In this document: piece after piece, positions 325 through 35,428 of the stretch | How the letters are laid out: every line of letters begins with the position of its first letter | Position numbering within the stretch: position 1 is the stretch's first letter | Assembly: GCA_947480055.1 (NCBI GenBank) | Contig: CANKBX010000005.1 | Location: 1-43,890, forward strand | Direction: 5' to 3' | Source: Planctomycetaceae bacterium | GTDB lineage: Bacteria; Planctomycetota; Phycisphaerae; Phycisphaerales; SM1A02 | DNA: 43,890 nt | Translations under genes and position numbers: made by a program | Notes under the pieces: model-generated | Databases searched by the model: none | What the model saw: the letters and a program-made list of their open reading frames with translations, nothing else | What the model was told of the DNA's origin: nothing

Positions 325-1188
325 CTATAAGTTTTCTAGGCTATTTGCGCGGATTTTTCGGCTACGCACCATGACCTTGGCCTGCTTGCGCAAGGCAATG
401 TCGTACATGCTTGGAAACGCGTTGATCAGACCCGAGGCCAGGCACACCGCAAGACTGGTCCACACTTCGCTCTTGGGCTTGCGCAGGCAACGCATAATCG
501 CGTTGGCAACTTGCTCCGGAGTTTGAATGAACATCTTCGGCGCGTGGTCGGGCAGCAGCTTTCCATTTGGATCCATGCCGCCGCGCAACGAAGCTTGCTG
601 AAAAAATTCCGTGGCGGTGCTCACGGGGTGCACGCTTGAAACTTCAATGCCGTGTGACGCAAGTTCAAAGCGCATGGAGCGCGTCACCATGGCTTGCGCT
701 GCTTTGGTTGCGGCGTACATGCCTAAATACGGAATGGTGAATTTTGACAAACAACTTGATGTCATCAGCAAATGTCCGCGTCGATTCTGCGCCACCATGT
801 CACGCGCCGCTAGCGTGATCAATTCCGTGGCGGAGAAAAAATTCACCTCAAACATTTCGCGTATCTCCAACATGGACATGTCGTGCACCGCCATCTCCGC
901 GCCGTAGCCCGCGTTGGCAAATACCACATCCACCACGCCAAATGCGCGCGTGGCGTGCGTTAGTAATTTTTCACTGGAGCCAGGCTGCCCGACATCTGTT
1001 TCTACAACAACCGCTTCGCCACCCCGCGCGCGAATATCCGCGGCCAATACCTCCAGCCGATCCGCGCGCCGCGCCGCAAGAACCACGCGCATTCCAGCGC
1101 GCGACATGGCCAGCGCCGTGGCCGCGCCAATGCCGCTGCTTGCGCCCGTGATCACCGCCACACGATTTTGTAGTTCACCAATCGCCAT
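325..1188 (-). CDS. Short-chain dehydrogenase/reductase (SDR family)
   Basis: A 287-residue classical SDR, a soluble NAD(P)-dependent oxidoreductase whose substrate cannot be told from sequence. The cofactor motif TGASSGIG is at residues 14-21, the NAG motif at 92-94, active-site Ser around 144-148 and the YxxxK pair at Tyr158/Lys162. An Arg-rich stretch after beta-2 (AARRADR) suggests a preference for NADP(H). The C-terminal tail of about 30 residues is hydrophobic then basic and may contact membrane, as in some SDRs acting on lipids. The gene diverges from the channel gene at 1219 with only about 30 nt between the starts, so the two promoters must overlap. No Shine-Dalgarno sequence is obvious. 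Confidence 0.88.
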   Translation of the reverse strand: MAIGELQNRVAVITGASSGIGAATALAMSRAGMRVVLAARRADRLEVLAADIRARGGEAVVVETDVGQPGSSEKLLTHATRAFGVVDVVFANAGYGAEMAVHDMSMLEIREMFEVNFFSATELITLAARDMVAQNRRGHLLMTSSCLSKFTIPYLGMYAATKAAQAMVTRSMRFELASHGIEVSSVHPVSTATEFFQQASLRGGMDPNGKLLPDHAPKMFIQTPEQVANAIMRCLRKPKSEVWTSLAVCLASGLINAFPSMYDIALRKQAKVMVRSRKIRANSLENL

Positions 1189-1218: not shown

Positions 1219-2523
1219 ATGCCAAGAGCGCGATTCTTTTTCCTTGTGATTTGCCTTCTAGCAATCAGTGGCTTCAACGCGTGGGGAAAAAATTTCGCGC
1301 CCACATTCAATCAAATCATGGCGCCAAATTTTTCAGCCGCATCACTTCAAGTTTCAGAACCCGCGCCCGCGCGCGATTCAACGACACCCACATTATCCAC
1401 TGCTTCCACCAGCACTTCGCAAGAAACTTTGTCGCCGAAACCGCCTGCCTCGCTCGCGCCTTCCGATCCAAATCCAAAATTGAAAATGCCCGTCGTTCAA
1501 AGACTGGAAAATCACGCGCCGTTTCGTGTTGGCGTATTCAATATGCCACCGTTTGCGTTTCGTTCCGGCGGCGGGCAATGGTCCGGTTTGGCGGTCACGC
1601 TATTTCAGCACATCGCAAATTCGAGCGGCTTGCGCTACTCAATTACGGAATTTGAGAACATGGATCGAGCGATCAACGCGGTTGAAAACAACACGATTGA
1701 TTTTGCCGCAATTGCGGTTGACCCCACGCCAGAATTTGAATTGACCATGAATTTCACAAACGCGTTTGAACTGAGCGGAACCAGTATCGCCATTGCCAAA
1801 CATACGCATTTACCCTTACTCAACCTCATTGAAAGTATTTGGCAATCAATCATTCCACGCTTTGTTGGGGTGGTTCTTTTCTCTCTTATAATTTTTGGAG
1901 TGATCGTGGGCTTGGTCGAGCGCAAAAAAAATACAAGTCAATTTGGTGGTGGTTTCTGGAGCACCATTGGCGAGGGTGTTTGGTGGAGCTCCGCCACAAT
2001 CAGCACGGTTGGCTACGGTGATCGTGTTCCCAAGACCAAGCGCGGCCGTTTCGCTGGGGGTCTTTGGATGCTGATCGCCTTCGCTCTCACCAGCCTTTTG
2101 GCTGGCTTGCTTTCCAGCGTCTTGACCGTAGCGCGAATCAATTCTGAAATTCACACCCCCACAGATCTGTTGCGTTTGAAATGCGGGGCCGTATTAAATT
2201 CCGCGGCCTTTGTGGACGGGGCGAATATGAAATACGACATGACTCCATATGCCTCAATGGACGATTGCTTGCGCGCTTTAGACCGCGGACAAATTGGCGC
2301 AGTGTTGGGTGAAAGCGTGCGCCTGCGCTGGCTGATGAATCAGCCGCAATGGCAAAACCTAATCATGCTTCCTTCGCCAATCGTAACGCTGTACTCTGTG
2401 TTTCCGGTTTCCAGCGAAGTGGACCCGCAAACATTGGATGTGATTAATTATCACTTGCTGAAAATCACCGACTCGAAAGAGTGGGAAGACATGCGACATT
2501 TATTTTTAGGAGATCAATCATGA
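1219..2523 (+). CDS. Ionotropic glutamate receptor-like potassium channel (GluR0-like)
   Basis: A 434-residue predicted ligand-gated K+ channel of the inner membrane. An N-terminal signal peptide (about 1-23) is followed by a Pro/Ser/Thr-rich linker (45-95) and the first lobe of a periplasmic amino-acid-binding domain (about 101-200). The lobe is interrupted by a pore module: M1 at about 213-233, a P-loop with the K+ selectivity filter TVGYGD at 263-268, and M2 at about 281-304. The second ligand-binding lobe follows (310-430). This split of the binding protein by an inverted-free two-helix pore is the architecture of prokaryotic glutamate receptors such as Synechocystis GluR0. The ligand is unknown. 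It lacks a Shine-Dalgarno site; TATCCT ends 8 nt before the ATG. The downstream btpA-like gene overlaps its stop by 4 nt. Confidence 0.88.
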   Translation: MPRARFFFLVICLLAISGFNAWGKNFAPTFNQIMAPNFSAASLQVSEPAPARDSTTPTLSTASTSTSQETLSPKPPASLAPSDPNPKLKMPVVQRLENHAPFRVGVFNMPPFAFRSGGGQWSGLAVTLFQHIANSSGLRYSITEFENMDRAINAVENNTIDFAAIAVDPTPEFELTMNFTNAFELSGTSIAIAKHTHLPLLNLIESIWQSIIPRFVGVVLFSLIIFGVIVGLVERKKNTSQFGGGFWSTIGEGVWWSSATISTVGYGDRVPKTKRGRFAGGLWMLIAFALTSLLAGLLSSVLTVARINSEIHTPTDLLRLKCGAVLNSAAFVDGANMKYDMTPYASMDDCLRALDRGQIGAVLGESVRLRWLMNQPQWQNLIMLPSPIVTLYSVFPVSSEVDPQTLDVINYHLLKITDSKEWEDMRHLFLGDQS

Positions 2524-3326
2524 GTGGAGATTTTGCGTTTCTTGGAGTTCCGCGTTGCCTCATTGGCATGGTGCACTTGGCGGCGTTGCCTGGCTCGCCA
2601 CGCAGTGAATTGCGTGTTTCGGAAATTGCGCGCCAAGCGGTGATTGAAGCCAAGTTGCTTGAGCGACTTGGCTTTGACGCCATCATGATTGAAAACATGC
2701 ATGATTTGCCTTATTTACGCCGCCATGTGGGTAGCGAAATTGTGGCGGCCATGAGCGCTTGCGTGCTGTCGGTGCGCGCGGCGGTGAAAATTCCAATTGG
2801 CCTGCAGATTTTGGCGGGCGCAAATCAAGAGGCCATGAGCGTGGCGCATGCGTGCGGCGCGGCGTTTATTCGCGCCGAAGGTTTCGCCCTTGCATCCGTT
2901 GCCGACGAGGGAATCTTTGACCAAGCCGATGCGGGACCACTTTTGCGCCACAGAAAAATGTTGGGCGCGCAACGCGTGATGATCGCCGCGGATGTGCTGA
3001 AGAAGCACGCCAGCCACGCCATCACCAGCGACCTGAACGCCGCCGAGCAAACGCGCACGCTTATTTTCTGCGGAGCCGACTGCATCATTGTCACTGGCAA
3101 AGCCACGGGCCAACCGGTGGACTTTGAGCAACTTGGCTTGGTGAAAGAGGCGTCGCGCGTGCCCGTGCTTGTGGGTTCCGGCGCGCGCGCCGACAACGCA
3201 AGCGAACTTCTTGAAATTGCCGATGGCATCATCGTTGGCAGCGACTTGAAGCGTGGCGGTCGTTGGCAAAATCCTATCGATCCCGCCCGCGCCAAGGCTT
3301 TCATAAAGGCGGCGCGCAAGAAATAA
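2520..3326 (+). CDS. BtpA/SgcQ family TIM-barrel protein
   Basis: A 268-residue protein of the BtpA/SgcQ family, TIM-barrel proteins named after a cyanobacterial photosystem I biogenesis factor; in non-photosynthetic bacteria the role is unknown. Recognisable segments are IGMVHLAALPGSPR near the N terminus, IMIENMHDLPY, the GAAFIRAEGF strand, TGKATGQPVD and the C-terminal phosphate-binding-like VLVGSGA and GIIVGSDLKR. I place the start at the ATG at 2520, which overlaps the channel stop (ATGA) and has AGGAG 8 nt upstream; an upstream in-frame ATG at 2481 lies inside the channel gene and adds non-conserved residues. Overlap suggests translational coupling with the channel. Confidence 0.85.
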   Translation: MSGDFAFLGVPRCLIGMVHLAALPGSPRSELRVSEIARQAVIEAKLLERLGFDAIMIENMHDLPYLRRHVGSEIVAAMSACVLSVRAAVKIPIGLQILAGANQEAMSVAHACGAAFIRAEGFALASVADEGIFDQADAGPLLRHRKMLGAQRVMIAADVLKKHASHAITSDLNAAEQTRTLIFCGADCIIVTGKATGQPVDFEQLGLVKEASRVPVLVGSGARADNASELLEIADGIIVGSDLKRGGRWQNPIDPARAKAFIKAARKK

Positions 3327-3406: not shown

Positions 3407-4267
3407 ATGAACGTTTGGCTCAATGGCCACATACTCCCGCTTGAAAAAGCCCACATTAGCCCGCTTGATCGTGGCTTTTTGTTTGGCGACGGCATTTATG
3501 AAGTGGTGCGCTTCTTTGATCGCACAGGCATGGCCATGGATGCGCACATGCGGCGCCTTGAGCGCAGTTTGCAACTCACACACATCACCGGATTCAACGC
3601 GCGCGATTTGCCGTCGCTGTGCGAACAACTTCTTCAAGCCGAAAATTTGCGCGACGCGTGCGTGTATCTACAAATCACCCGCGGCGTCGCCGCCACGCGC
3701 GCGCACATGCCGCCCGAACATATTCAACCCACCGTGTTCGCCATGGCCCATGCGTACGGCGCGCTTGACACACTCACCACCGCCGCGCCCATTTCGCTTT
3801 CAATTCAACCGGACCTTCGCTGGCATCGCTGCGATATCAAGTCAACCAGTTTATTGGGAAGCATTTTGCCAATGCTTGATGGACGCGCCCACCACGCCGA
3901 CGAGGCGATTTTAATTCGCGATGGTTTTGTGAGCGAAGGTTCAAGCTCGAATATTTTTGTTGTGCGCGGAAATAAAGTCGCCACGGCTCCCATCAACACG
4001 GATCCATCAATCTTGCATGGCACCATGCGCACTCTGGCCATCGACGCGGCCAAGCAACTTGGCTTTGATGTGTCCATTCGCCCCATTGAAGAATCAGAAC
4101 TCGCCGCGGCGGATGAAATCTGGGTCACCAGTAGCGGCCGCGTGCTTGCCAGTTGCGTGTCCCTGAATGGAAATATGTTTGGCACCGGAAAGCCCGCAAA
4201 AATGGCTTGCGCCGTGATTAATTGCATGCGCCTTGCGGTGGAAAATCTCCTGGTCAAGACTCCCTAG
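3407..4267 (+). CDS. dat: Class IV aminotransferase, probably D-amino-acid transaminase
   Basis: A 286-residue PLP-dependent fold-type IV aminotransferase. The PLP Lys is Lys145 within RCDIKS, which matches the active-site segment of Bacillus D-alanine aminotransferase in both sequence and position. The family start (NG.....A.ISPLDRGFLFGDGIYEV) and EGSSSNIFVV segment are present. A D-amino-acid transaminase would interconvert D-alanine and D-glutamate for peptidoglycan; branched-chain aminotransferase or aminodeoxychorismate lyase are less likely alternatives. The gene lies 80 nt after the btpA-like gene and 12 nt before coaX, so it probably heads or joins that operon. The start ATG is preceded by TAGGAT, which could be a -10 element of a leaderless mRNA or a weak AGGA ribosome site. 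Confidence 0.87.
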   Translation: MNVWLNGHILPLEKAHISPLDRGFLFGDGIYEVVRFFDRTGMAMDAHMRRLERSLQLTHITGFNARDLPSLCEQLLQAENLRDACVYLQITRGVAATRAHMPPEHIQPTVFAMAHAYGALDTLTTAAPISLSIQPDLRWHRCDIKSTSLLGSILPMLDGRAHHADEAILIRDGFVSEGSSSNIFVVRGNKVATAPINTDPSILHGTMRTLAIDAAKQLGFDVSIRPIEESELAAADEIWVTSSGRVLASCVSLNGNMFGTGKPAKMACAVINCMRLAVENLLVKTP

Positions 4268-6690: not shown

Positions 6691-6718
6691 TTGCAATTAG
6701 ATTTATGAATTGTATCTT
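6691..6718 (+). promoter_or_regulatory. Candidate promoter of the second Flp pilin gene
   Basis: TTGCAA (6691-6696) and TATCTT (6713-6718) are 16 nt apart, 70 nt before the pilin ATG and downstream of the terminator of copy 1. The copies therefore probably have separate promoters, because the upstream sequences of the two are not similar beyond about 25 nt from the start codon. Confidence 0.5.
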
Positions 6719-6788
6719 ATTTCTAGTCAATAACCGTCAAACAAGGTGTTTGGCGGAGAATTGCAAAAACCTTAGAAAGGATACTTAC

Positions 6789-6974
6789 ATGACAAACTGG
6801 ATTAAAAACTTCATTAATGACGAGCGCGGCGCTGAGAGCACCGAGTTGGCTGTTTCTGTTCTAGTGGTCGCCGGTGGTGCGATTGCTTCAGCTAAGACTC
6901 TTCGAAACAAGATCCAAGAGAAGAATGCCGATATGATCGAAGAGTTCGATACAACTGGCACAACTGGCCCTTAA
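6789..6974 (+). CDS. flp: Flp-type (type IVb) prepilin, copy 2
   Basis: A 61-residue prepilin identical to the gene at 6362 except for Ala47 instead of Ser47. The leader, the DERG cleavage site, Glu5 of the mature protein and the hydrophobic helix are the same. The site before the ATG (GAAAGG) is a better ribosome binding site than in copy 1. Having two almost identical pilins with separate promoters and terminators could raise dosage or let the two be expressed under different conditions. Confidence 0.82.
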   Translation: MTNWIKNFINDERGAESTELAVSVLVVAGGAIASAKTLRNKIQEKNADMIEEFDTTGTTGP

Positions 6975-6995
6975 TTCTTAGTAATTTGTAATTTC

Positions 6996-7025
6996 CAAAC
7001 AGCCCCGCTTCGGTGGGGCTGTTTG
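6996..7025 (+). terminator. Rho-independent terminator after pilin copy 2
   Basis: The same TTCG-capped 13-bp hairpin as after copy 1, followed by TGTTTTT. One base differs (C to T at 7014), changing a G-C pair to G-U, so the stem is kept. It also separates the pilin gene from the convergent TadG-like gene. Confidence 0.92.
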
Positions 7026-7098
7026 TGTTTTTACACTGCCAAATTAAAAGAACTACAAAATTACGGCAAAGCCACTTCAAACCACTTCACCATCACAT

Positions 7099-8382
7099 TT
7101 AACGCACCAAACGCGCCCGCCCGGGCATCGCTTGAGTAGTGAGTTCATCAATAACGTCGGTGAATTCAAGAAGAGCCGAACCATGCTCCTCTACAGATCC
7201 AAGAATCGCTGTTCCCAAACGCGCTTGGGCATTCAGTTCCATCTGAAGCGCCGTATCGGGGGCGTAGCAATGCGACTCAAAAGAAACTATCGCTGAGCCA
7301 GCTATTCTCCAAGGCGCTGTTGCGCCCCGTTGTATAAACCAGTACCCAGACCAATCGCCAATTCCGTCCGCGGGCGTTCCTTCCATCACACTGCTTTGGC
7401 CCACTCTCAACAATGCTGAATTTGCCAATTGAATTGTTGCGTGATCGAATTGCAAATTGCAAGTTCCACGAATAAATATCCCTTTCACAAATTGATGCAG
7501 GCCCGGGTCAAGAATGACGGTTCCACCACTAGCTTGCAGAAACCCATGCACGCCTGGAGCAACATGAGTCACGCCGATATTGTCATGATCGATGTCTGGT
7601 AGTTCCTCTGCAGGCACTACAAAAGCAGGCAAATCAATTGCATTCATGGGATCAGCAGGAATCACTTCAGACTCCTGCACAACGCCGTCCACAGCCAACT
7701 TGGTCTGTGGATCTATTGTTCCTGGCAGGCGCAACACAGTAAGTTGCATTGATGCATTAGGCAAAATCTGGCAAGCATTCGCGTTGATTGATCGCACCGA
7801 CACACCGCCCTTGGAAACCAGCCGGGCCTGATTATCTAAAGCAATCCCGCTAGATGTTTCCGCATTCAAAAGCAGTGAAGTGGTATTGCGCGGAGGGTTG
7901 TAAACGGCAATGCTCACGCGTTCAAATGCCATTGGCGATGTGCCAAAGAATCCGCCAAGCACCAAGCCAGGGGAACCATTGGGATGATCCGGCGCAAATC
8001 GCACACGCGCTCGAACAGCGGGCCCACCATCTGAGTCAACGGTAAAAACTCGAAGTTCATCGTCCCAGTGGCCAAATTCAACATCGCCTCCTCCACCTGG
8101 ACCGTTTCCAATAGTGACCACGATCGGACCATTTGGTCCCATATTGCCCGCAGCTGCTGCTTGGGCATCATCTCGGACATCATCGCCACTGTCCCTGTAT
8201 CGGGCCGCGGCGGCCAAAGCAACGGCATCCGCGGCAAACTTGGCGCTGGTTACTGAACGAACCGCCAATCCAATTTCCACGCCAAACCACGCCATCATTA
8301 AGACCACCGGTAGAAAAATGATCACGGTGGCCGTGGATGCGCCCCTTCTATTGGACCAAATAAGTTCAGTTGAATTACGCAT
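7099..8382 (-). CDS. TadG-like pilus assembly / Flp-associated membrane protein
   Basis: A 427-residue protein with an N-terminal pilin-like segment: basic NRRG, then ASTATVIIFLPVVLMMAWF as a hydrophobic helix, then AVRSVTSAKFAADAVALAAA, the typical start of TadE/TadG proteins. Most of the chain (about 75-427) is a periplasmic or exported part with many Val, Asp and Gly residues and no motif I can name. The ATG at 8382 is chosen over a TTG at 8391 because GGAA lies at a workable distance only for the ATG. It is divergent from tadV, with 81 nt between starts, so control of the two units may be shared. TadG-like proteins are thought to be minor pilins or anchors of Tad pili; the assignment rests on the N terminus and the location. 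Confidence 0.72.
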   Translation of the reverse strand: MRNSTELIWSNRRGASTATVIIFLPVVLMMAWFGVEIGLAVRSVTSAKFAADAVALAAAARYRDSGDDVRDDAQAAAAGNMGPNGPIVVTIGNGPGGGGDVEFGHWDDELRVFTVDSDGGPAVRARVRFAPDHPNGSPGLVLGGFFGTSPMAFERVSIAVYNPPRNTTSLLLNAETSSGIALDNQARLVSKGGVSVRSINANACQILPNASMQLTVLRLPGTIDPQTKLAVDGVVQESEVIPADPMNAIDLPAFVVPAEELPDIDHDNIGVTHVAPGVHGFLQASGGTVILDPGLHQFVKGIFIRGTCNLQFDHATIQLANSALLRVGQSSVMEGTPADGIGDWSGYWFIQRGATAPWRIAGSAIVSFESHCYAPDTALQMELNAQARLGTAILGSVEEHGSALLEFTDVIDELTTQAMPGRARLVR

Positions 8383-8463
8383 AAATTTCAAGTTCCACGT
8401 TGATTTTGCTACACTAGTTAGGATATTTCACAGAGTGAGATACCCACAAGGATAATAATATTA

Positions 8464-9111
8464 ATGTCTTCGATATTTCTAAATTTATTATGCTTTGACG
8501 TGCCTTTTGTAGGAAATGTGGCGCAATCAGAGCATGGACCCTCATTATGGGTCTGGATCTTGCTCATCGCAGCCGGAATCGTGGCAACCATTACCGATCT
8601 ACGCACTATGCTTATTCGAAATTGGCTCACTTTGCCACTACTAGTGGCAGGCCTTACTTACAGCGGTATTGTTGCCGGAACGCCTGGAGTTGTAGATTCG
8701 TTAGAGGGAGCCGGGGTGGCGGGAGGTGTATTTCTAGCTGCATATGCTTTCGCCCGCGGTGGCGCTGGCGATGCCAAATTAATGATGGCATTTGGATCAT
8801 GGGTTGGGTTTCAATGTTCGGCGGTGCTTTTATTAAGCGTGGCGATAGTAGGTTTTTTTGCAGCAATGGGGCTTATTGTTAAACGCTGCGGCATCACCCA
8901 AATTCCAAACGCTATTTTTCATCAAATTATGATGACCAGAATGGGCTTTTTACGATTTCTAAAGGGCCACAAGTTAAATCAAGATGAGAATGCCATCTAC
9001 CAAGCAGAACCTCAGCAGCGCCCTAAGTTATGGTTTCCATATGCTCCGTCCATCTTGCTTGGAACTATTGCCGCATGGTGGTATTGGGAACAATTTGGAG
9101 GAGTTCTATGA
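8464..9111 (+). CDS. tadV: Prepilin peptidase (A24 family, TadV/CpaA)
   Basis: A 215-residue membrane aspartic protease that cleaves and matures Flp prepilins and TadE-type pseudopilins. The two catalytic Asp residues are Asp45 (in TDLRTMLIRNWLTLP) and Asp103 (in GGAGD, the GxGD motif). About six hydrophobic segments are visible, as expected. The N-terminal methylase domain of PilD is absent, as in other TadV proteins. AAGGA precedes the ATG. The stop overlaps the tadE start by 4 nt (ATGA), so they are coupled. Confidence 0.9.
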   Translation: MSSIFLNLLCFDVPFVGNVAQSEHGPSLWVWILLIAAGIVATITDLRTMLIRNWLTLPLLVAGLTYSGIVAGTPGVVDSLEGAGVAGGVFLAAYAFARGGAGDAKLMMAFGSWVGFQCSAVLLLSVAIVGFFAAMGLIVKRCGITQIPNAIFHQIMMTRMGFLRFLKGHKLNQDENAIYQAEPQQRPKLWFPYAPSILLGTIAAWWYWEQFGGVL

Positions 9112-9524
9112 AATTGCACCGATTCAATCACTCTCGCCGCGGCTCTGAAAGTGCTGAGATGATTATAGCCCTTCCAGTGGTGATTTTATTGATTTTTGCG
9201 GGGTTTGAATATGGCTGGGTCGCCCTTAAATCAATCCAAATGGATCATGCCGCGCGCGTTGGTGCTCGAGTTGCGGCACTGTCTGGTTCCACATCTGCGG
9301 ACGTAGAAAATAAGGTAAATACAGCCCTTTTAAATTCTGGAATTGTGGGGGCAACACTTACCATTAATCCGCAAGATCCATCTACGGCACCACTTGGCAC
9401 CCCAATCACGGTTCTAATTGAGACCAATTATTCAAATGTGCAATTGCTTGGACTTAGCCGCATGATGCCACTGCCAGCCGTTCTGAAAGGGCGAGCCAGC
9501 ATGGTGAAGGAACCCGAGCCGTAA
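9108..9524 (+). CDS. tadE: TadE-like pseudopilin
   Basis: A 138-residue pseudopilin. The leader ends SRRG; the mature protein begins SESAE, with Glu at position 5, followed by the hydrophobic MIIALPVVILLIFAGFEYGW, a textbook TadE start. The remaining part is a small soluble domain. The ATG at 9108 has GGAGGAG just upstream and overlaps the tadV stop; an upstream in-frame start at 9030 lies inside tadV and would bury the leader. TadE is processed by TadV and is needed for Flp pilus assembly in the systems studied. Confidence 0.88.
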   Translation: MKLHRFNHSRRGSESAEMIIALPVVILLIFAGFEYGWVALKSIQMDHAARVGARVAALSGSTSADVENKVNTALLNSGIVGATLTINPQDPSTAPLGTPITVLIETNYSNVQLLGLSRMMPLPAVLKGRASMVKEPEP

Positions 9525-9671
9525 ATCACAGTTTGGGCAAGAACCGCTTGTCAATTCGGGGGCAAAATATTTCATTTCAACTCAGTTTCTGCATGATTTG
9601 TGCCGATAGTCACATGACTGTTGAATCAAGACTGAGCTTACGTAACTCCAGCAAATCGCAGAAATGTAACC

Positions 9672-12005
9672 ATGTCCACAACTCGTTTGATCATGATCGG
9701 CCTTGTCATGGCGGTGGTTGCCGCCCTGCTGGCTGTATTTGTGCAATTTGTCTTTGTCGCTGGCGGCAGTTCTGAAGGGCAGAGCTCTGCTCAAATGGTT
9801 GTTACTGCCCAGGAATTCCCCGCGGGGCACAAGCTTATTGCAAACGATCTTGTTGCCGCGCCAGCCAAAGCAATGGCCAATGGGAAAAAAGGGATTGCGT
9901 CAATGCAATCGGTTGTGGGTCGCACTTTGGTGATGCCCATGAAAAAAGGGCAGGCGATCACGGCCGAGGATCTTGTTGTGCAAGGATCTGGATCCTTGAT
10001 CGCCAGCCAAATTCCACCTGGATACCGCGCAATAGTTGTGTCGCTACGCGATCCCGCTCCAGGCGTTGTGCTTTACCCAGGTGCGCTTGTGGACATTCTT
10101 GCCACTATGGAAGCGCCGGGAACAGGAAATGCGCAGCGAGAAAAAATCACGCGAACAGTGCAGGAACGCATGCGTGTTCTTGCGGTGAATGACGAAACCG
10201 TTGGAGGCAAACCAAACGAAATAACTGATCGCCGCAATACAAACCAACGCAAACTTTCTGTAACACTGGCCGTGACTCCCGAGCAAGCTGCGCAAATCGA
10301 ACTCGCAAGCGCACGCGGCACAATTGGAATTACTTTGCGATCCGATGACGACGCCAATCCAGACTTGGGTCAATTTGCCACGGCTACAACAAAGTCGCTC
10401 ATGGGTATTGTGTCAGATGAAGCTGCGCCAGTCGCAGAAGACCCTGTGGCAAAGGGCACCAAAAAATCCAATGAAACCGCGCCAACGTATGCGCCCTCTG
10501 TTTCCAAGCAAACAAAAATGTTGGAATCCAAGATTTGCCGCATCTTTAACGTGAATCTTCAGGTTGAGGAAATTCAAGGAACCGTGGCGCTGCGTGGCAC
10601 TATGCCAGACATTGCAACGGCAAACTTAATCCAAGCCTTTATGACTGCCTCGGGATTAAAGTGGGTTGACCTCACCCACATCGCTGGCGTGCAACAAGTG
10701 CAATTGCGTGTGCGCATTGCCGAGGCAAGCCGATATGCATTGCGCGAGTTGGCATTTGGCGCGGTGGCCGGCGGCAATTCGTTTTTCGGTGGCTACCAAG
10801 CTCCGGGCGGAACCCCATTCCAACCAGTCTCAATTTCGCCGGGCGCTGGCGCGCAACAAACAGCCACCGTCGGTGGCAACGTCGCCACTGAAGCAAGCGG
10901 TGTCACCAGTCCAAACTTTGGATTCGATAAGAACGCAGTTACAAGCGCTGTGACTTTATTTGGAGGCGTTCCAGGCTCTGATTTGGAATTTTATATTCAA
11001 GCTCTTTCTGAGAATCGATATGTTCGTTTGCTTGCAGAACCCAACTTGGTTGCCATCAGCGGAGAACGCGCCACGTTTTTAGTTGGAGGCGCGTTTCCAA
11101 TTCCGGTTGTGCAAAACTCTGGCGCAAGTAGTTCGGTGACTATTGAGTACAAAGAGTTTGGTGTGCGATTGAACTTCCGCCCCGAAGTGCTTGGTCAAGG
11201 ACGCATTCGTTTAGAAGTGGCGCCTGAAGTCAGTGAGTTAAGCGAGATTGGTTCGCTGCGACAAAACGGATTCACCGTTCCAAGCGTGATTACGCGAAGA
11301 TCTAGCACCACCGTGGAACTGGGAAGCGGTCAATCTTTCGCCATGGCTGGCTTGCTTCGCACCAAGGAACAGGGACGCGTTTCAAAGGTTCCAATTCTTG
11401 GAGATATTCCCGTGCTTGGCGTGCTATTTCGAAGCGTTCGATATGAAGAGGATCAGACCGAATTGGTGGTGATGGTCACGGCTGAATTGGTTGAACCACT
11501 TGACAATGGAACCGTACGTCCGCTGCCTGGCGATCTGCATGAAGCTCCGAATGATTGGGAATTGTTTATGGAAGGTTCTCTCGCTGGGGCAACCAAAGCT
11601 GGCAAGCCGCTAGAGCGATTGAAAGCTCTTGGCTTGGCGGGTCTGCGTGGTCCAGGCGCTTTGCGCAGACCTGACGACGCGCGAGTTTCAGCCGCCGATG
11701 TATTTCCGGCAACAACAAGCGTTGAGGTTGAACAAAAAGTGCAACCTGAACCGTCAACAACCACTCCGGTTGTCAATGTAATTCCCGCCACGCTTGAGCC
11801 CGAACCATCTGCAACTACGCCAGTTGTCAATGAAATCCCCGCCACGTTTGAGCCGCAGCCATCCACAACCACGCCGATTTTGAATGAAATTCCCGCCACG
11901 CTGGAACCCCAGCCATCCATAACCACGCCAACTGAAAATCAAATTCCCGCCACGCTGGAAACTTTGCCTCAAGCCACGGTTCCCAACGAGACCAAGACCC
12001 CGTGA
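9672..12005 (+). CDS. CpaB-CpaC fusion: Flp pilus assembly protein and secretin in one chain
   Basis: A 777-residue protein that joins two normally separate Tad components. Residues 1-30 hold a transmembrane anchor; 38-110 form the SAF-like domain and about 115-235 the rest of CpaB/RcpC (QIPPGYRAIVVSL, YPGALVDIL). From about 282 a BON-like segment (CRIFNVNLQVEEIQGTVALR) leads into a secretin domain (about 325-605) with LLAEPNLVAISGERATFLVGG, the VTIEYKEFGVRLNFRPEV strand and VPILGDIPVLGVLF. The usual N-terminal pilus-associated domain of CpaC is missing. A tail with four 18-residue Pro/Thr repeats (693-764) ends the protein. There is no stop codon or frameshift between the halves. No clear Shine-Dalgarno site; 147 nt separate it from tadE. 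It overlaps tadA. Confidence 0.85.
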   Translation: MSTTRLIMIGLVMAVVAALLAVFVQFVFVAGGSSEGQSSAQMVVTAQEFPAGHKLIANDLVAAPAKAMANGKKGIASMQSVVGRTLVMPMKKGQAITAEDLVVQGSGSLIASQIPPGYRAIVVSLRDPAPGVVLYPGALVDILATMEAPGTGNAQREKITRTVQERMRVLAVNDETVGGKPNEITDRRNTNQRKLSVTLAVTPEQAAQIELASARGTIGITLRSDDDANPDLGQFATATTKSLMGIVSDEAAPVAEDPVAKGTKKSNETAPTYAPSVSKQTKMLESKICRIFNVNLQVEEIQGTVALRGTMPDIATANLIQAFMTASGLKWVDLTHIAGVQQVQLRVRIAEASRYALRELAFGAVAGGNSFFGGYQAPGGTPFQPVSISPGAGAQQTATVGGNVATEASGVTSPNFGFDKNAVTSAVTLFGGVPGSDLEFYIQALSENRYVRLLAEPNLVAISGERATFLVGGAFPIPVVQNSGASSSVTIEYKEFGVRLNFRPEVLGQGRIRLEVAPEVSELSEIGSLRQNGFTVPSVITRRSSTTVELGSGQSFAMAGLLRTKEQGRVSKVPILGDIPVLGVLFRSVRYEEDQTELVVMVTAELVEPLDNGTVRPLPGDLHEAPNDWELFMEGSLAGATKAGKPLERLKALGLAGLRGPGALRRPDDARVSAADVFPATTSVEVEQKVQPEPSTTTPVVNVIPATLEPEPSATTPVVNEIPATFEPQPSTTTPILNEIPATLEPQPSITTPTENQIPATLETLPQATVPNETKTP
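11748..11963 (+). repeat. Four 54-bp tandem repeats encoding a Pro/Thr-rich tail
   Basis: Four in-frame units of 18 codons (consensus EPSTTTPVVNEIPATLEP) form residues 693-764 of the CpaB-CpaC fusion. Units differ at several positions, in both the first and second base of codons, so the array is not very recent. Its composition suggests an extended, flexible segment at the C terminus of the secretin. Confidence 0.9.
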
Positions 12006-13312
12006 GTGACGCGAAGATCGTCAGCCCAATGAACGCCGCGGCGCTTGCCACACTGCGACGCGAACTGCACACGCGCCTTTTAAGCACATTTGATTTTGCC
12101 GCCGCGGACCAAATGAACCGCGATCAACTTGTCGCCGAGTGCAGCAAGCGCGTGGGAAAAATGCTGGAGCAAGGAACGCCTATTTCCAACCAAGAACAAG
12201 CGTGGCTTGTGCAAGGCGTGTTGGATGACATGTTTGGACTTGGGCCACTTGAGCCACTGCTCAGCAACGAATCGATCACCGACATTCTTGTTGTGAGTCC
12301 AGATCGAGTCTTCGTTGAGCGTCAAGGTCGTTTAGAAAAATGCGATGCGCAATTTCGCGACGAGGCACATTTGATGCATGTGATTCAGCGCTTAGTTCGC
12401 AACACGGGCCGACGCATTGACGAACTCAGTCCAATGGTGGACACGCGTCTATCCGATGGTTCACGCATCAATGCGATTATTCCCCCGCTTGCCGTGGATG
12501 GCGCCCAACTGAGCATCCGACGCTTTCCGAAGATCGCGCTTGGATTACATGGACTTGTCAAAATAGGAACGCTCACCAATGCCACCGCGGATCTGCTTCG
12601 AGCCATGGTGGCGGGTCGACTGAATGTGATCTTCTCGGGTGGTACGGGCGTTGGAAAAACAACAATGCTCAATGCCGCCTCGGTGGCCATTCCCACCACT
12701 GAACGCGTGATCACCATTGAAGATGCAGCGGAACTACGACTCGAGGGCGGCCACATTGTTCGTTTAGAGTCGCGAGCTGCAAATGTGGAGGGCGTTGGCG
12801 CCATCGAAACGAGAGAACTTCTTCGCAACGCGCTTCGCATGCGGCCCGACCGAATCATTGTGGGTGAATGTCGCGGCGCAGAAACGTTTGACATGATGCA
12901 GGCAATGAACACGGGCCATGAAGGCTCCATGACCACTTTGCACGCCAACAGCGCCAAAGACACGCTCACCAGACTTGAGTCCATGCTTTCCATGGGTGGC
13001 TTTGAAATGCCCATTCGAGTGCTTCGTGAATACATCGCATCAGCGATCGACGTTGTGGTGCATTTGGCGCGCCTACCTGATGGCCGGCGTGTGGTGAACG
13101 AAATTGTGGAGTTGTGCGGCAGCGACGAAAATGGAATTAAAATCGCGGTGCTGCAGAAATTTCAACTTGAAGGCGTGCGTGATGGCAAAGCCATTGGCAA
13201 ATTTGTGGCCACCGGAATTCAGCCACAGTTTCTAGAGCGCCTACAATCTCGCGGAATTATGCTTAGTCCTGCAGTATTTGCAGCCGGAGCGCTCCAAGCG
13301 GAGAACCAATAG
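12002..13312 (+). CDS. tadA: Tad pilus secretion ATPase
   Basis: A 436-residue hexameric ATPase of the VirB11/CpaF type that powers Flp pilus extension at the inner membrane. Walker A is GGTGVGKTT (213-221), the Walker B region IIVGE (285-289, preceded by RMRPDR), and the His box HEGSMTTLHA (306-315). The start is a GTG at 12002 that overlaps the stop of the CpaB-CpaC gene (GTGA), pointing to translational coupling. It is followed 2 nt later by tadB. Length is normal for the family. Confidence 0.94.
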   Translation: MSDAKIVSPMNAAALATLRRELHTRLLSTFDFAAADQMNRDQLVAECSKRVGKMLEQGTPISNQEQAWLVQGVLDDMFGLGPLEPLLSNESITDILVVSPDRVFVERQGRLEKCDAQFRDEAHLMHVIQRLVRNTGRRIDELSPMVDTRLSDGSRINAIIPPLAVDGAQLSIRRFPKIALGLHGLVKIGTLTNATADLLRAMVAGRLNVIFSGGTGVGKTTMLNAASVAIPTTERVITIEDAAELRLEGGHIVRLESRAANVEGVGAIETRELLRNALRMRPDRIIVGECRGAETFDMMQAMNTGHEGSMTTLHANSAKDTLTRLESMLSMGGFEMPIRVLREYIASAIDVVVHLARLPDGRRVVNEIVELCGSDENGIKIAVLQKFQLEGVRDGKAIGKFVATGIQPQFLERLQSRGIMLSPAVFAAGALQAENQ

Positions 13313-13314
13313 CA

Positions 13315-14169
13315 ATGACCTTGCAGACCCTGCTGCTGCCCATACTTTCGGCGGCCATTGCAATGACGGCGTGGATATTTTTTATGCGGCGAATGAGCAA
13401 CCGCGCCAACGCTCCCACTACCGCCACGGCAGAAACCCCGGAAAAAATCAAAGACAAGAACACGCGCTCGCCATTTCCTTTGGTCATTGGACTAGTGTTG
13501 GGGGGATTTATCTGGGTCATTGCCGAACGTCCAACATTGGCTATTGCCGCTTTCGTGCTGTGCTATGGCGTGAGCGAGATGCTGCGCATTCGCAAACAAA
13601 AAATACAACTGGTGCTCGAAGAGCAATACGCAATTGAAGCGGTTGGTGGCGCAAGCCGCTCATTGAGAGCCGGAATCCCTTTATCGGGAATGCTGCAGAT
13701 TCTTTCCGTGGAAACTCGTGGCCAAACGCAAATGGCGTTTCGACAAATCATTCAGCGCGAAGCCATGGGCGAAGAGTTGGCGATCGCAATTCGGCGTGTG
13801 TTGCTGCAATCGCCACTGTCCACGCTGCGTGCGTTTGGCTTGGCGTTGATCATTCAAATATCCGCCGGTGGAAATTTGGCCGACACCACCGATCGGCTTG
13901 CCCGCTCGCTAGTTGATCGCACAAGAGTGCTGCGCCGTTCCAAGGCGATTGTTGCCTACGCACGCGCGGCAGCCATTGTGCTTGCGGTGCTTCCGCCGAT
14001 CGTGGTTGCCTTGATGTGCGTGATGGTGGAAGGCTATAGCGAATTCTTGTTTGATCGAACCGAAGGCAACACTATTTTGGGCGTCGCGGTGGTTCTCGTT
14101 GTGATTGGGCTCACCTCTATACAGCGATTCGGCCGTATTGAATTGCAGAAAAAATGGAAGCCAACATGA
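13315..14169 (+). CDS. tadB: Tad pilus inner-membrane platform protein TadB
   Basis: A 284-residue GspF-type membrane protein that forms the platform with TadC on which TadA acts. Hydrophobic segments are at about 1-23, 56-84 and two near the C terminus (about 220-245 and 258-275), with the cytoplasmic T2SSF domain (about 110-215) between them. The segment AVGGASRSLRAGIPL is typical of the T2SSF start in TadB. It lies 2 nt after tadA and overlaps tadC. Confidence 0.88.
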   Translation: MTLQTLLLPILSAAIAMTAWIFFMRRMSNRANAPTTATAETPEKIKDKNTRSPFPLVIGLVLGGFIWVIAERPTLAIAAFVLCYGVSEMLRIRKQKIQLVLEEQYAIEAVGGASRSLRAGIPLSGMLQILSVETRGQTQMAFRQIIQREAMGEELAIAIRRVLLQSPLSTLRAFGLALIIQISAGGNLADTTDRLARSLVDRTRVLRRSKAIVAYARAAAIVLAVLPPIVVALMCVMVEGYSEFLFDRTEGNTILGVAVVLVVIGLTSIQRFGRIELQKKWKPT

Positions 14170-15035
14170 TCATGCTGCCGCTGATCGCAGGCTTCGCAAC
14201 CCTGGTTGCCGTGGTGGTGCTTGGCTTGAAAAGTCGATCCGCCGCGCAATTCAGTTCCAACATCACTGCTGACGCAGGAACCGAAAGTTGGATGCTTGAT
14301 GAAAAACCGATTGGTCTAACTTCATTGCTGCCAATTTCTTTGCGCACCAGACTCATTACCGCCGGCCTTGCGTCACCAACTCAGCAAATGAAATTTGTTG
14401 CCATTCACGTGCTGCTCACCATATCGGGGGCGTTGATATTGGGCTGGATGGCGTTTGACCAAGAGCCTTCACTCACGCCCACGGTTCTTGTTGGTTGCAT
14501 TGGTGGCGCCATTGGTTGGTGGCTGCCAAACTCATGGCTTGAAGTGCGCCTAGCACAGAGGCGCATAGATATTGTTTCGGAATTTCCTATCATGCTTGAT
14601 TTGCTGCAAATTTCTGTCCAAGGCGGCCTGGGACTTTCTGCCGCGTGGCTTGGCGTGGCGAAAACCTTGCGAGGCAGTGGCGACGCACTGGCCCAAGAAA
14701 TGAGGTTGGTTGAGTTAGAAGTGGGCTTTGGCGCTGGATGGAGAACAACCCTAGAAGCCACCACCGAACGAACTGGCGTGACTGAATTCCGATCCTTGGG
14801 CGCGCTGCTTGAGCAAACCGATCGATTTGGCACTGGACTTTCGCACATGATCCAGGTGCTTTCAGATTCCCTGCGCCATGAAGAACTTCAAGTTCTAGAG
14901 GAGCGCGCCCATCAAGCGTCGGTGAAAATGCTCTTTCCGCTTGCGGCCATGATGATGCCAGCCACACTTTTGCTGATTGTTGGACCGCTATTGTTGATGC
15001 TCTTTGAAGCACTTCAAGGCGCAGATGTGCGCTGA
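14166..15035 (+). CDS. tadC: Tad pilus inner-membrane platform protein TadC
   Basis: A 289-residue GspF-type membrane protein, partner of TadB. It has an N-terminal membrane segment, a paired hydrophobic region near 75-125, the T2SSF domain (EFPIMLDLLQISVQGGLGLS) and a final pair-like hydrophobic segment (LFPLAAMMMPATLLLIVGPL). I use the ATG at 14166, which overlaps the tadB stop (ATGA) and has GGAAG 5 nt upstream, rather than the ATG at 14154, which would use part of that site. It is co-transcribed with tadB. Confidence 0.88.
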   Translation: MIMLPLIAGFATLVAVVVLGLKSRSAAQFSSNITADAGTESWMLDEKPIGLTSLLPISLRTRLITAGLASPTQQMKFVAIHVLLTISGALILGWMAFDQEPSLTPTVLVGCIGGAIGWWLPNSWLEVRLAQRRIDIVSEFPIMLDLLQISVQGGLGLSAAWLGVAKTLRGSGDALAQEMRLVELEVGFGAGWRTTLEATTERTGVTEFRSLGALLEQTDRFGTGLSHMIQVLSDSLRHEELQVLEERAHQASVKMLFPLAAMMMPATLLLIVGPLLLMLFEALQGADVR

Positions 15036-15048
15036 ATCACCCAAAAAA

Positions 15049-15732
15049 ATGAAGAAATTCATCCGCAAGAGCACAAAGATGCCGATGAAAGAGACCATGA
15101 AAGCGTTCGTGATGCAAACCCAACTTCGCAACCAGATGCAGGCCCCAATCAATTTCAATTGTATACCTGGCGTTGCCCGCAATCTGCGCATGCCACTTGC
15201 ATTTACAACGCTCATTGCTGCCACTCTTTCGGTTGCTGCATGCAGCACTCCACCCAAGAAGCACACCGACAGTATTGTGATGAAAGACGAAGTGCAATAT
15301 GCCGTGGACAAAGAATTTGTGCGCGAGCCATTCAACGACCAAACTCGCTTGGGCGTGATTCGTCAGCGATCTCTGTACGAAGTTCACTTCAAACCAGATT
15401 CTGCGAAGTTGTCCAATCTTGGTCAACGCGATGTGGCAATTCTGGCCGAGGCATTGCGCAGCGAAGGCGGTCGCATTTCAGTGCCCAAAGGAATCGCCAG
15501 CGACACTTTGCATGCCGCAAGAATTGAGCAGGTTCGCCTGGCTTTGGTGGAGGCGGGTATTGACATGGCGCACGTGAAGATTGGCGATGAGGACGAGGGC
15601 GGCATTGGAAGCAGTACCCATGAAGCACTGCTTATCCAAGCGGACATACGCAAATCACCAATGAAAGAATCTGGTGGAAAGACTTTAAATAACACAGGTG
15701 ATGGCAAGCCTTCTGGTGGAGGCAACCCATGA
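15049..15732 (+). CDS. CpaD/OmpA-like pilus lipoprotein
   Basis: A lipoprotein predicted from the hydrophobic LAFTTLIAATLSVAAC segment, where the Cys would be acylated after cleavage. The soluble part contains VHFKPDSAKLSNLGQRDVAIL followed by an alternating region, which resembles the F..gSA.Ls.....L start of CpaD, a pilotin-like partner of the Tad secretin; an OmpA-like domain is the alternative. The last 25 residues are Gly/Lys/Ser-rich. The start is uncertain: 15049, 15097, 15136 and 15190 are all in frame, and the later ones would give a signal peptide of more normal length. It lies within the tad operon and overlaps tadD by 4 nt. Confidence 0.62.
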   Translation: MKKFIRKSTKMPMKETMKAFVMQTQLRNQMQAPINFNCIPGVARNLRMPLAFTTLIAATLSVAACSTPPKKHTDSIVMKDEVQYAVDKEFVREPFNDQTRLGVIRQRSLYEVHFKPDSAKLSNLGQRDVAILAEALRSEGGRISVPKGIASDTLHAARIEQVRLALVEAGIDMAHVKIGDEDEGGIGSSTHEALLIQADIRKSPMKESGGKTLNNTGDGKPSGGGNP

Positions 15733-16334
15733 TCAAGTTTCGAATGTTGCTTGCACGCGGCGCAACGGCAATGGCGGCAGCAATGCTTTTGCTTGCTCCG
15801 ATGAGTTGTGAATCAACGCCGGAAGTTTCCACCCCAGATTGGTTTGAAGGCGGCGCCATGAAGCCTGCTTCCGCGGAAACTCTGCAACTTACGGCGCGAG
15901 TGCTGGCCGCCAAAGGCGAAACCGCCAAGGCTGGATATATCTTGGATCGAATGTTTCAGCAATTTCCAAACTATCTAGGCACCTACACCGAGGGCGCCGA
16001 AGTGTTGTTGATCGACGGCCGCAATGCGGAAGCGATCAAGTGGCTGAATCGCGGACTTGAGAAATTTCCGAACCAACCCATTCTTATGAACAACCGCGGC
16101 ATGTGTCACTTGCTCGCCGCTGATCTTCCAGCCGCCACATCGGATTTTACCGCGGCCTACACAACGGATCCTGCCGATGCGGAATATGTTGCAAACCTTG
16201 CTCTAGTAAAGGCGCTTGGTGGAGACGATGCGGGGGCAACAGAACTTTGGAACCGCGTGCTTCCCCCAAGTGAAGTCCAGCGGAATATTGACATTGCCAT
16301 AAAGGCAAGACCAAACTTCCTGGTAAAAAAATAA
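15729..16334 (+). CDS. tadD: TadD-like TPR lipoprotein
   Basis: A 201-residue protein with a signal peptide ending LLLAPMSC, a likely lipoprotein site although the -3 to -1 residues are not ideal. The rest is helical and repeats the TPR pattern at about 53-85, 86-120, 121-154 and 155-187 (for example AEVLLIDGRNAEAIKWLNRGLEKFP). TadD proteins are TPR lipoproteins needed for assembly of the Tad secretin and pilus. The ATG overlaps the preceding stop. It is the last gene of the tad operon; a hairpin follows. Confidence 0.78.
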   Translation: MIKFRMLLARGATAMAAAMLLLAPMSCESTPEVSTPDWFEGGAMKPASAETLQLTARVLAAKGETAKAGYILDRMFQQFPNYLGTYTEGAEVLLIDGRNAEAIKWLNRGLEKFPNQPILMNNRGMCHLLAADLPAATSDFTAAYTTDPADAEYVANLALVKALGGDDAGATELWNRVLPPSEVQRNIDIAIKARPNFLVKK

Positions 16335-31242: not shown

Positions 31243-31723
31243 TTCGAGAGTCTAGTGACCAAAAAAATTCATGTTTTGCAGGCAAAATCAATTACAAATA
31301 CCATTTGTGGTGTTACGTACCCCCAACGACAAGATTTACACACAAAATATGGTGCTGTTTAAAATAATTAACCGATACGCAAAGGTTGTTTGAATATGAA
31401 CTTGTATATTAAATTTACAAAATCACAATATTGTGTGTCCCTGCTACTTGCGCCCCCAACGGATAGGGGTAGGATTGAGATGAATCGTGGTTTTTGGGGT
31501 AATTTCCAATGCTTCGACTCAAAAAAGTGTTTATTTGTGGGTTGATTTAAATTTAAATTTTAAGCTTAAAACGTTACTTGGATTTTCTTTAAAGAAATAA
31601 GACAAATGAGTCAAAATTTGAATCTCAAACAGTTCACACTTCAAACGCCACGCACTCTCTAAATAGTCCACGCCTTCTGCTTTCTCCCAATATTTTCGCC
31701 ACCTCGTTTAAGGATTGCACAAC
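31243..31723 (+). other. AT-rich non-coding region upstream of the ribonucleotide reductase gene
   Basis: 481 nt without a convincing gene, clearly richer in A+T than its surroundings. It holds a 16-nt sequence at 31340-31355 that matches the NrdR box pattern (ACACwATATATwGTGT) at 13 of 16 positions by eye, a second weaker match at 31421-31436 that contains the perfect palindrome CACAATATTGTG, and a palindrome TTTTAAGCTTAAAA at 31558-31571. The divergent helicase start lies at its left edge. The B12-box of cobalamin riboswitches is not seen. An AAGGA ribosome site stands just before the 31724 start codon. Confidence 0.5.
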
Positions 31724-34700
31724 ATGAAGATCACGCCACGATTCACCCGTCCAGGACAAGACGTCTTCAGCACCGTTGAGTGGAGCACTCGCACAAGTCG
31801 CATAAGTAATAGCGACGGGTCGACGGTGTTTGAAATGAATGACGCTGAAATCCCGGCGTCGTGGAGTCAGTTGGCGACGGACATTGTGGTGAGCAAATAT
31901 TTCCGCAAGGCGGGCGTGCCGCAAGTTGACGCGGCCGGCAAGAACAAAGTGGATGCCTCTGGCAAAACCGTTCTTGGTCCAGAGCGATCTGTAAAGCAAG
32001 TGGTGCATCGGCTCGCTGGTTGCTGGAAACACTGGGGTGAAAAGTTTGGCTACTTCTCCACTCCGCAGGATGCGCAAGCGTTCTACAACGAAATTTCTTG
32101 GATGTTGCTCAATCAAGTCGCGGCGCCAAATAGTCCGCAATGGTTCAACACTGGTTTGCATTGGGCTTACGGAATTAATGGTCCCGCGCAAGGACATTGG
32201 ATCGCGGAACACGACACCGGCGCAGTTTCACTGGCCACCGATGCGTACAGCCATCCGCAACCGCACGCGTGCTTTATTCAAAGCGTGCGCGACGATCTTG
32301 TGGGCGATGGCGGCATCATGGATTTGTGGACGCGCGAGGCGCGCCTGTTTAAATATGGATCTGGCACTGGAACCAATTTCAGCCAACTTCGTGGCGACAA
32401 TGAGCCGCTTTCAGGTGGCGGTAAAAGTTCGGGCCTGATGAGTTTCCTGAAAATTGGCGATCGCGCCGCGGGTGCGATCAAGAGTGGTGGAACAACTCGC
32501 CGCGCCGCCAAAATGGTGTGCTTGGACGTGAATCATCCCGACATTGAGGCCTTTGTGAATTGGAAAGTACGCGAGGAACTGAAAGTGGCTGCGCTTGTTG
32601 AAGGCGCCAAAAAGTTCACGCCAGAGCAAGCGGAAATCGCCAAACGTCTGAAGTTGAAACTGGATTTCGATTTCAATGGCGAGTGCTATCAAACAGTGAG
32701 CGGCCAGAATTCCAACAACTCAATCCGCCTTTCGGACGAGTTCATGAACGCCGTTGAAACCAACGCGCAGTGGGATTTAATTCAGCGCACCGACGGAAAA
32801 ATCTCAAAGACACTTCCAGCGCGCGACCTGTGGCAACAAATTAATTTCGCGGCGTGGCAATGCGCCGATCCTGGACTGCAATACGACAGCACCATCAACG
32901 CTTGGCACACATGCCCTGCCGGTGGTCGCATCAACGCCAGCAATCCATGCAGCGAATACATGTTCCTGGACAACACCGCGTGCAACTTGGCCAGCATTAA
33001 TTTGCTCAAGTTCTACAACTCAGAAACGCGCGCCTTTGATCTAGAGGGTTACGAGCACGCGATCAACCTGTGGACCGCGGTGCTTGAAATCAGCGTGATG
33101 ATGGCGGCGTTTCCTTCCAAGGAAATCGCGGAACTCAGTTGGAAATATCGCACGCTTGGATTGGGCTACGCCAACTTGGGCGCCATGCTTATGCAAGCCG
33201 GCATTCCATACGACAGCGATCAAGGTCGCGCGGTGTGCGCGGCGTTGTCCGCCATTCTCACGGGTCGCAGTTACGCCGCCAGCGCGCTGCTTGCGGCGGA
33301 GCACGGCGCTTTCGCCGGCTACGGCGAAAATCGCGAGAGCATGTTGCGCGTCATTCGCAATCATCGCCGCGCCGCTTACGGCGTGGACCGCGCTGCAAAT
33401 GAGTGGGAAACGCTGGAAATCAGGCCTGTTTCAATTGATCACACCTTGTTCAAAGCTGGAAAAGTTTCGCTGTCAAACGCGAGCGACTTGCTGGCGCGTT
33501 CATTGGCGTGTTGGGACGACGCGTTGTTGTTTGGAACCAAGTTTGGTTTCCGCAACGCGCAAGTGACCGTGATCGCGCCAACCGGCACCATTGGTTTGCT
33601 CATGGATTGCGACACCACCGGTGTCGAGCCAGATTTTGCGTTGACCAAATTCAAGAAACTTGCGGGAGGCGGCTACTTCAAGATCGCCAATCAAAGTTTG
33701 CGCCCAGCCATCAAGGCACTGGGCTACAGCAATGAGATCAGCGACCGAATTATGACGCACGTCATTGGCACGCTGAGCATTGACACCGCGCTTCCAAGCG
33801 TGACAGGTGAAATTACAAATGACACCACCACCTTGCGCGAGTATCTCAGCGCCAAGGGCTACACCGGTGACGATTTGGTCGCGTTGGAAAATCAATTGCC
33901 AATGATGTTTGAATTGGGCTTCGCCTTCTCCGCATGGAGCATGCCGCAACACGTTCTTGAAAATATTGGCGTGAACGCAGATGCCGCCAAGAACGATCCA
34001 AAGTTCAACGGCCTGCGCAAGTTGGGTTTGAAGAAGAAGCAAATCGAAACGCTCAATCGCTTGATTTGCGGAACGCAAACCGTGGAAGGCACGCCGCTTC
34101 TCAAGGCCGAGCACTTGCCTGTGTTTGATTGCGCCAACAAGTGCGGCGCAACTGGCACGCGCTTTATCCGTCCCGACGGCCACATTCATATGATGGCCGC
34201 GGCGCAACCTTTCATCTCTGGCGCCATTTCAAAAACCATCAATTTGCCCGCTGAAGCCACGGTTTCTGATGTTGGCGCGTCCTATCGATTGAGTTGGGAA
34301 CTTGGCCTGAAAGCCAACGCGCTGTATCGCGATGGCAGCAAGTTGAGCCAGCCTTTGAACACCAAGACCGATGTGGAGCAAGAGGACGAGGACATGGACG
34401 GCTTGCAGTTGACCGAATCCACTTCCATCACAACCACCGTGATCCACGAGACGCTCTCATCAAGCACGCAGACAATTGATCGCGTGATTGAAGTGGCCGC
34501 GACCGAATCCGTTGTTGTGCCTTCGTCCACAAAGGGTGAATTTGTGGAACGCGTTGTTGAGCGAGTTGTTGAACGCATCATCGAGCGGCCACTTCGTCGT
34601 CGCTTGCCAGAAACGCGCGGCAGCATCACGCACAAATTCAACGTGGCCGGCCATGAGGGCTATCTGATTGTTGGCTTGTACGAAGATGGCCGCCCAGGCG

Positions 34701-35428
34701 AACTCTTTATCACCATGGCCAAAGAAGGTTCAACAATTGGCGGCTTGATGGATTCGCTTGGCACCGCGATCAGCGTGGCGCTTCAATATGGAGTGCCGGT
34801 TGAAAGTCTGGTCACCAAGTTCGCGCATCAACGCTTTGAGCCAATGGGAATCACATCCAACTTGGATATTCCGTTCGCCAAAAGTTTGGTGGACTACATA
34901 TTCAGATGGATGGGAATGCAATTTATTCACGGGTATCGCGAACAAAATTCACCGCGGCGCGGAGCTGCCGCGGCTTCATATCAGGCGCAGGATGTTCCCG
35001 CGCCTGGCTTTAGCAAACCTGTCAAGGAGGACACGCAATGGACACAACGCATGGAAGGCGCCGCGAATCAACCGGCGAATCGTTTTTCCGGAACGGACAC
35101 AACTGGAATTGGATCGAGCGGTTTGGCAGATCAAGTTTCCGCCCCGAACATCTTCAAAGACTCGGCGAAGACCGACGGTGTATTGAACAGAATGTCCGTG
35201 GAGGATCTTGGACGATTGACGGGAGAATCTTTGGCTGGAGTGACGTCGTCCGTGACGATCAAAGAAGAATTCACCAGCGGAGTATTTCAATCAGCATCCG
35301 TGCTTGACCAATCCAATGCCCAACTTATGGGCGACGCTCCGGCATGCGATGTGTGCGGAGCGATCACTGTTCGAAATGGAACTTGCTATCGATGTCTCAA
35401 CTGCGGCAACAGCATGGGCTGCAGCTGA
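31724..35428 (+). CDS. nrdJ: Adenosylcobalamin-dependent (class II) ribonucleoside-diphosphate reductase
   Basis: A 1234-residue enzyme that makes deoxyribonucleotides using a B12-generated thiyl radical, without need of oxygen. It carries the RNR barrel with [13 protein letters not shown] near 210, the active-site NPCSE (Cys near 408, Glu near 410), and [20 protein letters not shown], followed by a linker and the TSCPD domain (about 967-1065) typical of the large vitamin B12-dependent form. The last 30 residues form a four-Cys zinc-ribbon-like module (CDVCG...CYRCLNCG) thought to serve the reductive relay. The start at 31724 has AAGGA upstream; a TTG at 31715 would precede it. No intein or frameshift is seen. 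It is isolated from other nrd genes. Confidence 0.94.
   Translation: [1234 protein letters not shown]

Follow-up and report, generated by a model that had tools for sequence, protein, structure and literature searches.

A GluR0-type K+ channel lacking the pocket arginine in a conserved planctomycete btpA locus

Introduction

Bacterial glutamate-receptor-like channels have been studied chiefly as ancestors of the synaptic receptors and are presumed to be amino-acid sensors. What, then, does such a channel respond to if the residues that grip the amino acid have been exchanged? This question is raised by a gene in the window, the whole stretch of 43,890 nucleotides analysed here, which an earlier note had described as a glutamate-receptor-like K+ channel of a likely planctomycete, with its pore placed inside a split binding domain. 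Assignment to a planctomycete host agrees with the nearest named records, which are metagenome-assembled genomes (MAGs) from Planctomycetia/Phycisphaerales.

GluR0 of Synechocystis, for which expression in the K+-uptake-deficient E. coli LB2003 has been used, conducts K+, is outward-facing and has an effect on cell volume when KCl is high (PMC13099474). In the prokaryotic receptors of Ger et al., an Arg in the S1 lobe, which binds the α-carboxylate, and an Asp in the S2 lobe, which binds the α-amino group, are reported to be totally conserved (PMC2950845).

Results and discussion

Architecture and membership of the glutamate-receptor superfamily

A Pfam search of the channel returned SBP_bac_3 in split form over residues 104–426 (1.9e-12), Ion_trans_2 at residues 219–303 (1.4e-11) and Lig_chan at residues 218–319 (9.8e-9), all over cut-off, with SBP_bac_3 lying on both sides of the pore. 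Hydropathy analysis resolved a hydrophobic stretch at the N-terminus plus two membrane segments, while no third membrane segment (M4) was found by this method in the 434 residues. Domain order (S1–pore–S2) and the K+ selectivity filter TVGYGD therefore confirm the core of the earlier description, and the domain search did not assign the protein to another family of K+ channels, one with no split binding domain, the outcome that had been named as its refutation. Signal peptide, S1, inverted two-helix K+-filter pore, S2 and lack of M4 are all shared with GluR0 (Slr1257, Synechocystis PCC 6803) and the other Group 1 receptors. The positions of the features are collected in Table 1.

Table 1. Positions in the window of the channel gene, its parts and its conserved neighbours
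Feature	Position	Strand	Evidence
Short-chain dehydrogenase, divergent, conserved upstream flank	325..1188	-	PF00106 4e-44; synteny
Channel open reading frame	1219-2523	+	434 aa, ATG start
N-terminal signal peptide, about residues 1-24, MPRARFFFLVICLLAISGFNAWG	1219..1290	+	Sequence; hydropathy peak residues 1-24; kept in 7 orthologs
P/S/T-rich spacer, residues 24-98	1288..1512	+	41% P+S+T; ortholog length variation; dN/dS 0.40
S1 lobe of split solute-binding domain, residues 99-198	1513..1812	+	SBP_bac_3, PDB alignments, column counts
Codon of Phe173, site of α-carboxylate-binding Arg	1735..1737	+	F in 7/7 window clade; R in 48/48 canonical
Pore module: outer helix ~206-237, pore loop, inner helix ~277-307	1834..2139	+	Ion_trans_2, hydropathy
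Selectivity filter TVGYGD, residues 263-268	2005..2022	+	Sequence; V264-D268 invariant in alignment
S2 lobe, residues 313-434, with Glu365	2155..2520	+	SBP_bac_3 second half
Codon of Glu365, site of α-amino-binding Asp	2311..2313	+	E in 7/7 window clade; D in 48/48 canonical
btpA (BtpA/SgcQ family), its start and the end of the channel gene share 4 nt (ATGA)	2520-3326	+	PF03437 4.5e-71; TIGR00259 over cut-off; synteny
Class IV aminotransferase, D-amino-acid-transaminase-like, next in conserved block	3407..4267	+	PF01063 1.6e-39; synteny

From a single sequence, the window binding domain matched its Nostoc homologue 2pyy at 4.4e-6 and GluR0 weakly, at 0.006. A profile built from 25 planctomycete relatives reached the ligand-binding cores of 2pyy (2.3e-40) and GluR0 (1ii5, 1.5e-33), as well as animal AMPA receptors across S1–pore–S2 at about 1e-29. 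The binding domains of the window channel and of GluR0 and Group 1 are thus homologous and, judged from these matches, the channel is a K+-filter member of the glutamate-receptor superfamily, comparable to Group 1 of Ger et al. (PMC2950845). A voltage-gated or other Ion_trans_2 K+ channel without split binding domain is excluded, since SBP_bac_3 flanks the pore; identity as a eukaryotic-type ionotropic glutamate receptor is excluded by the missing third membrane helix and the GYGD K+ filter.

The Pro/Ser/Thr-rich spacer ahead of the ligand-binding lobe, likewise reported earlier, is real. Its length differs by about 40 residues across orthologs and its dN/dS is higher than elsewhere in the protein (0.40 vs 0.20–0.23), so that it looks like a flexible tether, and a functional role for it was dropped on these grounds. 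The length of this spacer and the position upstream of btpA set the window channel apart from GluR0 and Group 1.

Exchange of the pocket residues

Structure prediction with AlphaFold from seven orthologs gave a pLDDT of 37 and the model was discarded as unusable, so the pocket is known by alignment alone. In contrast to GluR0 and Group 1, Phe173 occupies the site of the S1 Arg and Glu365 that of the S2 Asp, and both are invariant in the seven orthologs including the window channel, the latter being a conservative change. Animal AMPA receptors have Glu at this S2 position. The canonical planctomycete channels (e.g. L009, L013 and L152), which have the same architecture and filter and roughly 24–31% identity to the window channel, differ from it in carrying both Arg and Asp without exception (48 of 48). 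Asp168 in S1 additionally replaces the canonical pocket Thr (Asn in one ortholog), a position held by Thr, Ser or Ala in all canonical planctomycete rows counted except one, and at position 391 Gln/Glu has become Leu. Gating by amino acids, which the earlier note had implied, is consequently left unsupported, as the Arg that defines the known prokaryotic glutamate receptors is absent.

The exchange does not reflect decay of the binding domain, since dN/dS is as low in S1 (0.21) and S2 (0.23) as in the pore (0.20), compared with 0.40 in the signal and spacer part. The binding domain, like the pore, is under purifying selection.

Distribution and phylogeny

The statement that such channels are rare in bacteria fails for this family, where a K+-filter channel occurs in about 70 of 181 genomes. 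Among 53 btpA-locus channels, a count that takes in L098, a neighbour of the aminotransferase but with no btpA, both pocket residues are present in 7, Arg alone in 5, Asp alone in 8 and neither of them in 33; Arg is hence absent in 41. It should be noted that the Arg column is alignment-sensitive in some divergent members, and a tolerance of ±1 position raises the number of Arg-bearing btpA-locus channels from 12 to 14 of 53, leaving the window clade unaffected.

In a tree calculated after removal of the two pocket columns, with 46 of the 48 canonical channels kept, these group as a single clade (98/93) and every btpA-locus channel lies on the other side. The label canonical or btpA-locus thus switches once on this tree, whereas it takes a minimum of 7 changes for Arg and of 5 for Asp. 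Root and direction were not inferred by the tree program; we read the Arg changes as losses, not gains, because GluR0, periplasmic amino-acid-binding proteins and the canonical channels all have the Arg. Within the genus, Arg and Asp occur in other members, Tyr and Asp in G391 (L050) and Phe and Glu in the window clade; L008, a sister of the window channel, bears the Arg, and sister lineages display varied pocket replacements (N/S, Q/P, L/P and S/D). Genomes holding both a canonical and a btpA-locus channel were not seen in the family sample.

The family additionally contains a second S1–pore–S2 class without K+ filter (pore like MSVVMTGKTNYKG), comprising 22 loci (L105, L106 and L107–L126, e.g. 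G391:C2:264267-265346), most of them with Arg and Asp. This class resembles Group 2 of Ger et al., and several species hold both classes.

The btpA locus

The 4-nt ATGA overlap with the btpA-like gene, noted earlier, is real and occurs in 7 of 7 orthologs, in identical form in six from planctomycete MAGs at 72–87% identity. Across nine genera of one family, the channel lies directly upstream of btpA in 52 distinct loci; both genes share one strand in all 65 locus records (duplicates included), at an estimated gap of -19 to 138 nt (median 5). Where flanks are long enough, btpA is followed by the class IV aminotransferase, and the upstream side is taken by a divergent short-chain dehydrogenase, a GAPDH-like gene or both. 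The pairing, previously described as unfamiliar, therefore stands, but it is no one-off: it is an old, conserved arrangement found family-wide. In the flanks examined around canonical channels (500 to 1,500 bases, the extra phylum-level loci lying outside this check) no btpA was found.

btpA itself is present in 150 of the 181 family genomes, in many of them without an adjacent channel, and the block is retained in a number of channel-less relatives. We therefore reject the idea that btpA strictly depends on the channel, and channel and BtpA need not work together. A search for a solved structure matching BtpA by sequence found none, and a limited literature search on BtpA/SgcQ function and planctomycete glutamate receptors yielded nothing usable. 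In the channel-less relatives L129, L138, L142, L144 and L148, the place upstream of btpA is occupied by a minus-strand reading frame that, by eye, resembles an aldose 1-epimerase.

Proposed function and alternatives

While the architecture is a known one, the loss of the pocket residues and the conserved btpA locus are new. We propose, on the basis of the aligned sequences and at even chances, that the protein is a GluR0-type K+ channel derived from amino-acid-gated ancestors, which now answers a small ligand other than an α-amino acid. The exported subunit would carry an inverted two-helix K+ pore inserted in a periplasmic solute-binding domain, and four subunits would build a K+-selective pore that opens upon clamshell closure around the ligand; tetrameric state, outward orientation of the domain and gating are inferred from GluR0. 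With the carboxylate sub-site changed from Arg/Thr to Phe/Asp and the amino sub-site still acidic, the pocket would be hostile to an α-carboxylate, and free α-amino acids would no longer be recognised, because the positive charge of the carboxylate sub-site has gone and an acid has come in. A candidate ligand would be small and without α-carboxylate, perhaps an amine. The ligand-driven K+ flux might adjust membrane potential or turgor, and BtpA, probably co-expressed, may serve the same physiological process.

The main rival is a constitutive K+ leak, in which the hydrophobic pocket substitution would hold a closed-like state, leaving the pore open without ligand, and a ligand would act as blocker. 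We take this as a serious alternative, given that loss of a pocket residue in a placozoan AKDF1 receptor leads to constitutive, ligand-blocked leak currents, as summarised in the part of PMC12226733 that cites Seljeset et al., and that in the present channels Arg has become Phe or Tyr and Gln/Glu at position 391 Leu. However, S1 and S2 are constrained as much as the pore, and the diversity of replacements in the sister lineages fits changes of ligand at least equally well, which together make the leak doubtful. Degeneration of the gene, with a ligand domain losing its function and a vestigial channel, would likewise account for recurrent pocket changes in the btpA-locus lineage and for genomes in which no channel precedes btpA, yet reading frames and filter are intact and dN/dS remains at about 0.2 over S1, pore and S2; this explanation, already disfavoured, we regard as highly improbable.

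The channel could also still be gated by an α-amino acid or a dipeptide whose carboxylate is held by other groups. Some amino-acid binding could survive, since the exchange of Asp to Glu is conservative and the acidic residue for the amino group is thus retained as Glu365, and animal GluE2-α receptors without the Arg are nevertheless predicted to bind glutamate (PMC12226733). Against this, the change of Thr to Asp168 places a negative charge near the expected carboxylate position, and the Arg is present in all 48 canonical channels and described as totally conserved in the known prokaryotic receptors (PMC2950845), so that we consider continued amino-acid gating unlikely.

The btpA-operon lineage of this one planctomycete family could be a bacterial counterpart of the animal ionotropic receptors, having repeatedly left amino acids and diversified to other extracellular ligands, a suggestion which we make tentatively and would sooner doubt than assert. 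Arthropod IRs similarly have divergent binding domains in which some or all glutamate-contacting residues are gone (PMC2924276). They differ in being eukaryotic, in having non-K+ pores with M4 and in being proven chemoreceptors; the parallel is meant as an analogy, and a common origin of the residue loss is not claimed. The amino-acid grip appears to have been replaced stepwise under continued constraint on pore and binding domain, which would make this lineage a natural experiment on ligand switching, and the conserved pairing with the little-known btpA family offers a genetic handle on the purpose of the channel.

Genome context and other loci in the window

In the genome to which the window belongs (G000, 82% complete), the SBP_bac_3 domain of the channel is the sole one found; among control genomes, members over cut-off occur in 12 of 14. 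This genome, which contains one further Ion_trans_2 channel, may lack ABC uptake of polar amino acids.

Elsewhere in the window, positions 6705–16334 hold an apparent Tad/Flp pilus cluster with a small Flp-like pilin recognised by eye (6705–6974), a reading frame matching both RcpC/CpaB and secretin, perhaps two fused genes (9672–12005), and a type II/IV secretion ATPase (12002–13312). A tricorn-like protease with S41 peptidase, PDZ and PD40 propeller repeats is encoded on the minus strand at 39290–42958. At 31715–35428 lies a 1237-aa ribonucleotide reductase of the class II, B12-dependent type, in which the barrel-domain model matches two separate stretches; an intein or other insertion may divide the barrel.
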